Source: a virus. From it: a DNA stretch of 64,000 nt. This document shows positions 3,041 through 6,122 of the stretch, one piece after another. The notes under the pieces were generated by a model, which ran no database searches, was not told where the DNA came from, and saw only the letters and a list, made by a program, of their open reading frames with translations. Location of the stretch: positions 1-64,000 of IMG/VR virus record IMGVR_UViG_3300017527_000123; one strand, written 5' to 3'. A program made the translations under genes and the position numbers. Each line of letters opens with the position of its first letter. Position 1 is the stretch's first letter.

Positions 3041-3658
3041 CTATTTTAATTTTTCTACTATGGAATTTCTGTCTTTATAGTTGACCTGATAGCAGGAATC
3101 AAAAGCAGGAATGAGGTTGTCATCATGGGTGACTATTATGAACTGAATGTCCAACCTCTCTGAGAGTTCCTTCAACATCCTGCCAGCCCTTTCAGACAAT
3201 GCGCCCAACCATCTGAAAGGCTCATCAAGTATCATCACATTTCTGGAACGTGGGTTCTCCAAATACCAGAGAACAATTTTTATTCCAAGGGAAATGATGT
3301 CAAGGATTCCGCCGCCGCAGTCATCGGCAGGATTCAATTCCTCATCATTTTCAAAGACAGCAATTCGGCATTCCGTTCTGTTCCTCTTTTGTTCAAGGAT
3401 CAGCTTGCATTGGAAATCCCTTTCTTCATAAACTGATTGAACTGCTGAAGACACAAGGGATTCAATTCTGTCAGTGAAATTCTTTTGAGCCTGTTCACCA
3501 GCCAGGATGATGATGTCCCTGGCCTGTTCATGATCCCTCATTTGCTCATCCAAAAAATCAATGTCAGATCCGTGCTGTTTGATTTGTTCCCCATAGATTT
3601 TTTGTTTTGCTTTGACCTCTGCCAAGTCTTCCTTCAGATCATTGATCTTCCGTTCCAT
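3041..3658 (-). CDS. Rad50/SbcC-like ATPase, C-terminal lobe
   Basis: A 205-residue protein carrying only the second half of a Rad50/SbcC ABC ATPase. It has about 60 residues of coiled coil, then a signature-like CGGGILDIISLGI (about 114-126), Walker B VMILDEP (141-147) and H-loop IVTHDD (H178). The partner N-terminal half with Walker A is the gene at 4813-5790. Three starts are possible (TTG 3673, ATG 3667, ATG 3658); I prefer 3658, where GAGG is nine bases upstream. It overlaps the small coiled-coil gene before it. Known family role: with Mre11 it resects or trims DNA ends. No hook motif is present in this piece. Confidence 0.8.
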   Translation of the reverse strand: MERKINDLKEDLAEVKAKQKIYGEQIKQHGSDIDFLDEQMRDHEQARDIIILAGEQAQKNFTDRIESLVSSAVQSVYEERDFQCKLILEQKRNRTECRIAVFENDEELNPADDCGGGILDIISLGIKIVLWYLENPRSRNVMILDEPFRWLGALSERAGRMLKELSERLDIQFIIVTHDDNLIPAFDSCYQVNYKDRNSIVEKLK

Positions 3659-3887
3659 AGAGTTCATCCTCAATTGTTTTGATCAATCGTTTCATTGCAT
3701 CATCATTTTTCTGCAACTCTTCCTTGATTGCTTTGATTCTTTCTTGTGCCTGCTTCTCATCTTCGATGTTGAGAGAATCCTTCATGTCCTGCAAAAGTTC
3801 AAGTTCCCTTTGGCCCTCAATCTTCAGCAAGGCTTTTGTGTTGGCAATCTCTTCTTTGATTGCTTTCAGTTTGCTCTCAAAACTCAT
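3639..3887 (-). CDS. small coiled-coil protein, possible Rad50 arm piece
   Basis: An 82-residue protein that is almost all heptad-like helix rich in K, E and L (MSFESKLKAIKEEIANTK). It sits between the Mre11 gene, which it overlaps by the ATGA junction, and the Rad50 C-terminal gene. Its length plus the 60-residue coil of the C-terminal gene roughly matches the 155-residue outgoing coil of the N-terminal gene. It may therefore supply the missing part of the returning arm (inference). It could instead be an unrelated small coiled-coil subunit. Confidence 0.65.
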   Translation of the reverse strand: MSFESKLKAIKEEIANTKALLKIEGQRELELLQDMKDSLNIEDEKQAQERIKAIKEELQKNDDAMKRLIKTIEDELYGTEDQ

Positions 3888-4816
3888 TTCATTTTCTCCA
3901 TTAGCATTGATGATAAAATCTCTTTGACATTCTCACCACCATCGAATGCCTCAAGAAAGTTTTGCAAGATTGCCAGGAAGTCAGTTCCCTTTTCCTGAAC
4001 TTCCTTGATGGAAGAAATAAATTCATCCATCATGTCAATTGATGATGTGGCCCTTTCCGTTTCTCTGCCTGCCACTCTGATGCAGTTGTCATGATGTTCA
4101 AAGGGAAGAGTTGCCCATTGATGATTTATTTTTTTTCCATTTATATCAATGATCCAATATCCAGGTTCATGCAAAAACAGATCAGAGGTTTTCCTGATCA
4201 TTGGGCCGGAGTTGACAATCAACCGTTCCTTCTCCTTCTTGCTGAATGTCCTGTGTTGATCCCCACAAATTATGAGGTTGTATTTTGATTGATCCCTCAG
4301 AAAGATGTTGGCCTTTCTATATTCCTGATTGGGATTCAATTCAATGTCACTGATGTTGGCATGGATCACAAGGATGTTGAAAGCCTTTGGATCTTTTGGT
4401 TCTGGAATCTCCTGGCCGAAACTGCAACCATAATAATTGACAGAAGTTTTTTCACTTGTGGAAACCATTGGAGTTTCATTCAGGATCTTGACAAAGCCTG
4501 CCGCTTCTAAAACTCCCAAGGATGTGTTGGATCTTGTTCCTTCAGAATAAAGATAGGTGTCATGCTGACCGAAGACAGCCAGAACAGGTTGATCAAGATA
4601 GTCATCAAGAAGATTGATGATCTTGGGAAGCAGGAACCATGATCTTGGTTTGTCGAATAGATCACCAGCAACAACAAGTTCCACTTCCTCATCATTGTTC
4701 TTTATGAAGTCCAGCAGGCTTTCAAGTTTTTCAATCTGTGTCTCAACCACATTGTCAGCACGGCAACCAAAGTTTTTATCTGTCAAGTGTATATCAGCCA
4801 AAGCAATCAATCTCAT
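3884..4816 (-). CDS. Mre11/SbcD-like nuclease (T4 gp47 type)
   Basis: A 310-residue calcineurin-like metallophosphoesterase, the expected length for SbcD/gp47. The motifs appear in order: ADIHLTD (residues 7-13), GDLFD (about 51-55), GQHD, IHAN, and CGDQH. The usual GNHD motif is GQHD here, an Asn-to-Gln change at a metal-ligand position. Family role: Mn-dependent exo/endonuclease acting with Rad50/SbcC on DNA ends during recombination. It overlaps both neighbours by ATGA junctions, between the Rad50 N-terminal gene and the small coil gene, so the pieces are translationally coupled. Confidence 0.85.
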   Translation of the reverse strand: MRLIALADIHLTDKNFGCRADNVVETQIEKLESLLDFIKNNDEEVELVVAGDLFDKPRSWFLLPKIINLLDDYLDQPVLAVFGQHDTYLYSEGTRSNTSLGVLEAAGFVKILNETPMVSTSEKTSVNYYGCSFGQEIPEPKDPKAFNILVIHANISDIELNPNQEYRKANIFLRDQSKYNLIICGDQHRTFSKKEKERLIVNSGPMIRKTSDLFLHEPGYWIIDINGKKINHQWATLPFEHHDNCIRVAGRETERATSSIDMMDEFISSIKEVQEKGTDFLAILQNFLEAFDGGENVKEILSSMLMEKMK

Positions 4817-5790
4817 TGGAAAGACCTCTTGATCAATTGTTGAATGTTGAGTGGGGTTTCACAGGTTGGACAGATTTCTTGTTGACTGAGCAGTTCTTCC
4901 AATTCCTTTTTCAGCCGTTTCAGATTCTCTGTCTTCTTCCTGTTCCTGGCAACAAGGAAAATATATCCTTCAACCAGTTGTTGATCCTGAAGCAATGACT
5001 CTCTCTTCTCTGCCAACTTTTCATGCCTGACAATCTTCTTTTCAACACTGGAAATCCTGGCAGAAATTTCTTCAGCTTCTTTCAACTTCTCTCTGCATTC
5101 TTCCAGGTCATCAATGAATCCAAGCAGGCTGGTTTCTTCAGCATCCAGGGCTTTCTTCTTTCTGGAAAGAACATCCAATCTGTTTATGTATTTTTCAACC
5201 TTGGGAATGTCAGGAAGATTGGCAACACTGTCTTCAATCTTGTCTCTTTCAATTTCCTTGAATTTGATTTCCCTTGAGAAGCCGCCAATCTTTTTGCTCA
5301 GATCAGAAACAAATTCATCAACCTGTTCCAGGTGGGTGACTCTGTTGATTGTCTTTGCAATCTCTCCGCTTGAGGAAGTGACAAGGAAGGGAGGATCAAG
5401 TTGACTCTGGAAATTCAACTCACCCAGATTCAACACCTGAAGGATCTTGTCAGGAACAGTCTGACTTCCCTTCCACTTCTCACCGTTCAATTCATAGAAA
5501 GTTTCCTTCAGTGAAATCTTCCCATCCTTTGCTTCGGTCATTATTTTGGTGAGGATTATTTTCTCACCTGAGTTGAGAATCACTTCAACGGTGCAAGGCT
5601 CTTTGACATCGGCTTGGTTGTTGAAATACCTTGCACCCTGTGGGCGGTTGTTTGCTAATAGATTGAAGGCTCTGAGAATTGCAGTCTTCCCACTTTGAGA
5701 GATTCCCACAATGCCATTGATGCCTGGGGCAAACTCCAATTCAGTTGATTTGTGTGACTGAAAGTTTTTGATGCTGATTGATTTGATCAT
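4813..5790 (-). CDS. Rad50/SbcC-like ATPase, N-terminal lobe with zinc hook
   Basis: A 325-residue protein from ATG 5790, chosen because it forms an ATGA overlap with the previous stop and has a GGGAG site; an in-frame ATG at 5808 has no spacing from its ribosome site. It has a Rad50-type opening MIKSISIKNFQSH, Walker A GISQSGKT (29-36), ATPase lobe to about 150, coiled coil 150-305, and CPTC at 307-310 matching the CxxC zinc hook. It stops 15 residues after the hook, so the returning coil and second lobe lie in other genes. With the Mre11-like gene it forms the phage end-processing complex. Confidence 0.8.
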   Translation of the reverse strand: MIKSISIKNFQSHKSTELEFAPGINGIVGISQSGKTAILRAFNLLANNRPQGARYFNNQADVKEPCTVEVILNSGEKIILTKIMTEAKDGKISLKETFYELNGEKWKGSQTVPDKILQVLNLGELNFQSQLDPPFLVTSSSGEIAKTINRVTHLEQVDEFVSDLSKKIGGFSREIKFKEIERDKIEDSVANLPDIPKVEKYINRLDVLSRKKKALDAEETSLLGFIDDLEECREKLKEAEEISARISSVEKKIVRHEKLAEKRESLLQDQQLVEGYIFLVARNRKKTENLKRLKKELEELLSQQEICPTCETPLNIQQLIKRSFQ

Positions 5791-6122
5791 GATTTTCGCA
5801 TCTCCCACCTGTGATATATTTTTGCAAACAGAAGGATGGCAATGCCAAAAATGAAAATGGTCTTGCTTGTTCGGAATTGATCTTGAATGTCTTTCAACTG
5901 TGCATTGCAGGCTTCCAACTCTTTTTGTATTTGTTCAAGTTCAGGCTCCTCTTGTTCAAGTTCAGGCTCCTCTTGTTCAAGTTCAGGCTCCTCTTGTTCA
6001 AGCAACTCTTCCACAAGTTCAGGCTTCCCTTTGATTTCCAACTCTGGCATTTCTAAAATGAGAGAGGCAGAGGCAGGCACAGCAGTTGGAATGGCAAGAA
6101 GGATTATCAAAAGCAAAACCAT
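5787..6122 (-). CDS. membrane protein with acidic heptad repeats
   Basis: A 111-residue protein with an N-terminal hydrophobic segment resembling a signal peptide (MVLLLIILLAIPTAVPASA), an acidic stretch with three tandem copies of a 7-residue unit EEPELEQ, a helical region with one Cys, and a C-terminal membrane segment (IFIFGIAILLFAKIYH). The topology suggests an exported, C-terminally anchored helical rod. A strong AAGGAG site precedes it. No family recognised; it may act at the host envelope. Confidence 0.7.
   Translation of the reverse strand: MVLLLIILLAIPTAVPASASLILEMPELEIKGKPELVEELLEQEEPELEQEEPELEQEEPELEQIQKELEACNAQLKDIQDQFRTSKTIFIFGIAILLFAKIYHRWEMRKS
5931..6002. repeat. 21-bp tandem repeat inside a gene
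   Basis: About 3.4 perfect head-to-tail copies of a 21-bp unit beginning TTGTTCAAGTTCAGGCTCC. The unit length is a multiple of three, so each copy adds seven acidic residues to the membrane protein. Perfect identity suggests recent expansion by slippage. Confidence 0.95.

Follow-up and report, generated by a model that had tools for sequence, protein, structure and literature searches.

As a rule, a Rad50 or SMC protein consists of one chain, in which the two strands of the arm are necessarily of equal length. How, then, is a Rad50 arm built when its two ATPase lobes are encoded by separate genes? This question is raised by a locus in a window of 64,000 nucleotides, positions 1 to 64,000 of the 80.6-kb virus record IMGVR_UViG_3300017527_000123. 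A first-pass annotation of the window had proposed a Rad50 split around an Mre11 gene, and all four genes concerned are present at the place that it gave. They overlap and run on the minus strand from 5790 to 3041 in the order N, M, S and C. Their features are as follows:

4813..5790, minus strand: N, the Rad50 N-half, 325 aa, with the N-lobe, a long arm and a terminal zinc-hook motif
5683..5706, minus strand: Walker A motif GISQSGKT of N, from the translation; its GK is invariant in 65 relatives
5218..5331, minus strand: proximal segment of the N arm, residues 160-197, from the AF2 helix 160-196 with the break after it and from N-C covariation
4873..5217, minus strand: distal segment of the N arm, residues 198-312, two modules of about 47 residues up to the hook (151-residue class)
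4861..4872, minus strand: CPTC zinc-hook motif, 15 residues from the C-terminus of N
3884..4816, minus strand: M, an Mre11/SbcD-like nuclease, 310 aa, from Metallophos and Mre11 structure profiles
3639..3887, minus strand: S, an 82-aa two-helix protein, conserved nearly everywhere, from AF2 helices and covariation with N-arm modules
3834-3836, minus strand: codon of Lys18 of S, the covarying charge in alignment column 34 (S34)
3041..3658, minus strand: C, the Rad50 C-half, 205 aa from the ATG at 3658, with a short arm and the C-lobe
3524..3658, minus strand: C arm, about 45 residues to the lobe base (HEQAR), from the alignment and covariation with the proximal N arm
3308..3316, minus strand: altered signature motif GGG of C, from profile alignment to P. 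furiosus Rad50
3221..3226, minus strand: Walker B Asp-Glu (ILDEP) of C, invariant in the family alignment

Four overlapping genes encode the parts of a probable Mre11-Rad50 complex

The start of N at the ATG at 5790 (MIKSI...) agrees with that of its relatives, while the mechanically called open reading frame begins at a GTG at 5808. The N/M and M/S junctions are ATGA overlaps. For C, the ATG at 3658 is the most probable start; it gives a protein of the family length and a 20-nt overlap with S. In the window, a C-rich low-complexity region with imperfect repeats of about 27 bp (1764-2680) opens several long overlapping frames on both strands. Close upstream of N, a reading frame of 111 aa contains a perfect 21-bp tandem repeat (5931-6002, 3.4 copies, coding for ELEQEEP).

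The N protein matched AAA_23 in Pfam (8.7e-12) and phrog_16465 in PHROGs (1.4e-31). In an AF2 model based on N and 65 relatives (pLDDT 87), the lobe was followed by two helices (160-196 and 201-308) with a break between them, and then by the hook and another, short helix; the best matches of the model in the PDB were N-lobe chains of Rad50, e.g., 9a9j_A and 1f2u. N has a Walker A-containing lobe of Rad50-like fold and a CxxC hook at the tip of its arm, and it ends shortly after the hook, as the first-pass annotation had noted. Of 140 N proteins, 139 have the CxxC motif, at most 22 residues from the end in all but one; the exceptions to a hook at the arm tip are the proteins of locus L031 and of Microbacterium phage Magritte. 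The L031 protein (L031:3331-4398), which ends ...NVCPFYNVICPLKTKKL, is the sole surveyed N-half that has lost the motif.

The C protein matched phrog_15167 (1.1e-20), and its family profile matched the C-half of solved Rad50 chains (1.7e-12). It carries a C-lobe with Walker B and an H-loop, the histidine of which is replaced by aspartate in 4 of 145 C proteins. The ABC signature motif of Rad50 is usually LSGGE/Q. This motif is absent from C: the signature serine aligns with a glycine in the profile alignment to P. furiosus Rad50, and 134 of the 145 proteins have GGG, GVG or GYG. The coil of C, estimated earlier at about 60 residues, is nearer 45 up to the lobe base. The M protein has metallophosphoesterase motifs typical of Mre11/SbcD; it matched Metallophos (1.6e-10), and its family profile matched solved Mre11/SbcD structures (3.5e-11). 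Its motifs occur in variant forms, GQHD in 68 and GDxH in 107 of 142 proteins. Given these variants and the Gly-for-Ser exchange in the signature of C, the activity of the complex should not be presumed.

The S protein is a conserved small helical subunit. AF2 predicted helices 3-39 and 44-77 with moderate confidence (pLDDT 76). A structure search against the PDB gave no fold match, comparison with Pfam and PHROGs gave no convincing one, and covariation within S did not tell a hairpin from an extended helix. The S and C genes touch or overlap in about half of the loci. The gap between them is at most 20 nt in 57 of 99 loci, and in 29 of 99 they are separated by whole genes or by more than 200 nt. 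S and C are often translationally coupled, and the loci gave no hint of an excess of S.

The split is shared by phages and plasmids

BLAST-level searches with the window proteins returned nothing, or distant matches in cultured phages, so profiles were needed. Separate profile searches revealed relatives of the N-half in 437 viral contigs and of the C-half in 321. The best contigs of both searches, together with a third set, provided 155 distinct loci, 124 of which contain all four genes; the incomplete ones mostly lacked some of the parts, and many of them lie close to a contig end. A second genome scan matched only four MAG contigs. In none of the 155 loci were any of N, S and C fused to each other. 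Clearly, the two ATPase head halves are supplied by separate genes, with the outgoing arm located entirely on N, together with the hook, rather than by one chain with an intramolecular antiparallel coiled coil as in Rad50/SbcC. The gene order of the window was recovered as well: 100 of 104 complete loci have N-M-S-C on one strand.

The same set of genes occurs in Bacillus phage vB_BboS-125, in Microbacterium phage Magritte and in plasmids of Firmicutes (Paenibacillus polymyxa, Geobacillus, Aneurinibacillus, Alkaliphilus and Bacillus velezensis). In the P. polymyxa, Geobacillus and Aneurinibacillus plasmids, Mre11 is fused to N, and C and the small protein are still separate. The order N-S-C in the Firmicutes plasmids is collinear with a normal Rad50. 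When compared with the phage S profile, the small plasmid proteins gave an E value of 5e-5 for B. velezensis and weak or no similarity for the others, so that it is in part by their position and size that they are taken as S; a profile-profile comparison gave 7e-6. In vB_BboS-125, the annotation omits an Mre11-like gene located between gp36 and gp37 (NC_048735.1 22423-23403; L007:7247-8227). In Magritte (OR553905.1), the four parts lie dispersed along the genome, and unlinked parts also persist in the contig of locus L092. The Magritte N-half, which has no hook, is gp155, and the C-half is gp2; the S-like protein, gp245, adjoins gp244, a protein annotated as a nuclease that is not Mre11, and the Mre11-like match lies at 119660-120673.

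The first-pass annotation had taken the overlapping junctions as an argument against a sequencing error, and we reached the same view on wider grounds. That an ordinary rad50 was broken by sequencing error, frameshift or decay might be suspected from the adjacent and overlapping reading frames of the window. The identical split, however, recurs in 155 distinct loci as well as in cultured phages and plasmids, the parts are frequently separated by entire genes, and the catalytic motifs are conserved throughout. Error or frameshift is thereby ruled out as its cause, and this explanation as a whole can practically be dismissed.

As for how the split arose or might be repaired, an Rfam search of the window found no intron or other RNA. 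Protein trans-splicing is unlikely, as nearly all N proteins end within about 2-22 residues of the hook. Several loci contain HNH domains: the hook of N is directly followed by a fused NUMOD4-HNH domain in L220 (L220:1426-3018), an AP2-HNH gene lies between N and S in vB_BboS-125 (L007:5407-5979), and a NUMOD4-HNH-AP2 gene lies within the cluster of L229 (L229:5365-5898). Homing endonuclease insertions at or near the split could have caused it originally.

The arm of N varies in steps of 47 residues

We measured the arm of N as the stretch between the point where the lobe ends and the hook. Arm lengths ranged from 151 to more than 300 residues and clustered at 151, 198 and 245. In 121 of 139 proteins the length was within 4 aa of a 151/198/245/292 grid, a zone that makes up 22.6% of the range. 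The step between classes, 47 residues, equals the length of an internal repeat. In a self-comparison averaged over 67 arms, a lag of 47 ranked first and one of 94 second, and 47 also ranked top among the covariation offsets within the arm. The repeat is present in the Aneurinibacillus and B. velezensis proteins too. About 25 changes of arm class are required on the head-domain tree, which is itself poorly resolved. Thus, past its first 40 residues or so, the N arm is an array of 47-residue modules, the number of which varies among genomes. In the 198-residue class, the hydrophobic period was 3.38 in the distal and 3.52 in the proximal part of the arm, as compared with 3.5 in an ordinary coiled coil. 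An antiparallel folding of the N arm on itself found no support.

The sizes of S (about 80 aa) and C (about 204 aa) are constant across the arm classes, and N-arm length correlates neither with S length (Spearman -0.03) nor with C length. It had been noted that the 82 residues of S and the 60 assigned to the C coil add up to nearly the 155 residues of the outgoing arm. This coincidence does not extend to the relatives: since S and C stay constant while the N arm varies by 47s, one S and a C arm do not make a length-matched return arm in general.

Covariation of C and S with the arm of N

Covariation between the N and C arms was computed over the 124 paired loci. The top four pairs fell on one antiparallel diagonal, which begins at the arm base and reaches the break around residues 197-200; this suggests that the C arm pairs in antiparallel orientation with only the first 40 or so residues of the N arm.

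For S, its charges were compared with the module-averaged charges of the N arm, in 2420 tests. The three strongest complementary pairs lay on one antiparallel diagonal, and none of 1000 permutations was as strong. After the removal of 10-20 phylogenetic axes, S34 and S44 remained strongest, with S48 and S53 joining their diagonal, while another strong pair, S20 with phase 11, was lost. An orientation test of S helix 1 favoured the antiparallel (p 0.008) over the parallel arrangement (p 0.23). Strong signals of C faded upon the same correction, and C, M and the N-head did not show the pattern seen with S, even though M retained a moderate unexplained signal (z about 3.3). These tests rest on about 100 loci with a poorly resolved tree, and a tree-based independent-pair test of S-arm covariation had too few supported pairs to count either way.

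The most pronounced case was S34 with arm position 92: 60 loci combine Lys/Arg in S with Asp/Glu in the arm, 4 have the charges reversed and 1 has like charges, i.e., 64 opposite-charge loci versus a single like-charge one (p 7e-6). S34 also covaried with N139 (p 0.0017) and with the hook-proximal equivalent (p 0.006), and its partial correlations with the first two modules were -0.44 each. The charge-swap covariation of S34 thus spans at least two repeats, and probably three. As the module positions are 47 residues, or about 70 Angstrom along the helix, apart, one S cannot touch them all, which indicates several copies of S per arm. In the window protein, position 92 counted from the base is Ile and not acidic; this arm is 2 residues off register, and the position registered from the hook is Glu.

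Possible architectures of the arm

The reading towards which we lean, at somewhat better than even chances, is an Mre11-Rad50 (SbcCD-type) DNA-end-processing complex in which Rad50 is assembled in trans and S hairpins tile the distal N arm. N and C would join non-covalently into a single ATPase head, as do Rad50 N- and C-lobe halves such as those of 1F2T, and the C arm would lie antiparallel on the proximal N arm. Beyond the break, S hairpins would pack on the distal arm with helix 1 antiparallel to it, one per 47-residue module, i.e., two in the window phage and, elsewhere, three or four. As far as the zinc hook, the row of S would stand in for the absent return strand; N alone would set the length of the arm, and the row of S would extend to match. 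This tiling is inferred from covariation. Weighing against it are the limited number of loci with their poorly resolved tree, the loss of the S20 pair and the leftover signal of M after correction, the moderate confidence of the S model and its lack of a PDB fold match, the Ile at base-counted position 92 of the window protein, and the frequent coupling of S and C with no hint of an excess of S. We regard it as an even call whether the return strand of this SMC-type arm is indeed a row of identical S hairpins, the length of which shifts stepwise via the modules of N.

Two other architectures were weighed against tiling by S. The arm might be assembled from three chains, as suggested in the first-pass annotation, with one S and the C arm lying end to end, so that the two make up the full return strand in the coil of one Rad50. 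The conserved split and the apparent, antiparallel position of S on the N arm bear out part of this proposal, the collinear N-S-C order of the Firmicutes plasmids agrees with it, and the lengths in the window come close to fitting. What fails is the matching return arm: N arms of the typical 198, 245 or more residues outrun S (about 80) plus the C arm (about 41) by at least 70-120 residues, the length of S is independent of that of the arm, and S34 covaries with several positions spaced 47 residues apart. We therefore consider this architecture decidedly unlikely. Alternatively, the distal N arms of two protomers could form a parallel homodimer up to a shared hook, with S as an accessory protein near the joint, on C or Mre11. 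The arms would then always be equal in length, because a single gene supplies both, and the frequent adjacency of S and C (57/99 loci) would be in keeping with such a position of S. Against this stand the directional, antiparallel covariation of S charges with the modules, from which C, M and the N-head differ after correction, and the distal hydrophobic period of 3.38, which is unusual for a plain two-stranded coil, so that a homodimer, too, appears unlikely.

Relation to known complexes and implications

The MR complex (Rad50/SbcC with Mre11/SbcD, of the T4 gp46/gp47 type) shares with the window family the Walker A N-lobe, the Walker B/H-loop C-lobe, the CxxC hook at the arm tip and an Mre11-type nuclease partner. 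The window family differs from it in that the head halves are on separate chains, the C arm has only about 45 residues, there is a dedicated S protein, the N arm has 47-residue modules, and GGG replaces LSGGE. Chains A and B of P. furiosus Rad50 (1F2T), which were among the best sequence matches, are likewise separate N- and C-lobe polypeptides, but they were made in the laboratory from a protein that is a single chain in nature. The N-half profile is also similar to an Archaea-specific SMC-related protein (NF045487; 5e-17 for locus L047), the model of which, with 593 positions, is longer than the N-half alone.

Yoshida et al. (2011, PMC3175470) noted that, in Mre11/Rad50 fusions of Bacillus phage 0305phi8-36 and of Anaerostipes, a P-loop NTPase segment 'was not observed', in line with the present family, and the Paenibacillus, Geobacillus and Aneurinibacillus plasmid proteins have the same build as those fusions; a separate C-half or a small S is not mentioned in the passages of that paper drawn on here. 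A search of the openly accessible published papers found no description of a split Rad50, of an S subunit or of the 47-residue modules. In PHROGs, the N, C and S proteins of vB_BboS-125 belong to phrog_16465 (exonuclease), phrog_15167 (ATPase) and phrog_18563 (unknown), respectively, listed as three unconnected families with no link into one complex.

The neighbouring genes encode a UvsX-like recombinase, a DNA polymerase, a DnaB-like helicase, a primase and an exonuclease, as well as RuvC-like (resolvase) and MazG-like proteins. Because of these recombination and replication genes, the complex most likely serves in the processing and tethering of DNA ends in recombination-linked replication.

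Taken together, these results join three PHROG families that had stood apart into one set, and indicate that in hundreds of viral contigs the Rad50 arm has been taken apart, with repeated small subunits suggested for one of its strands. A small protein lining the arm in several copies appears to be an undescribed way of building Rad50. If this is true, these phages and plasmids would offer a natural series of arms of different, countable lengths, and the roles of arm length and of the hook in Mre11-Rad50 would become testable through the number of 47-residue modules.
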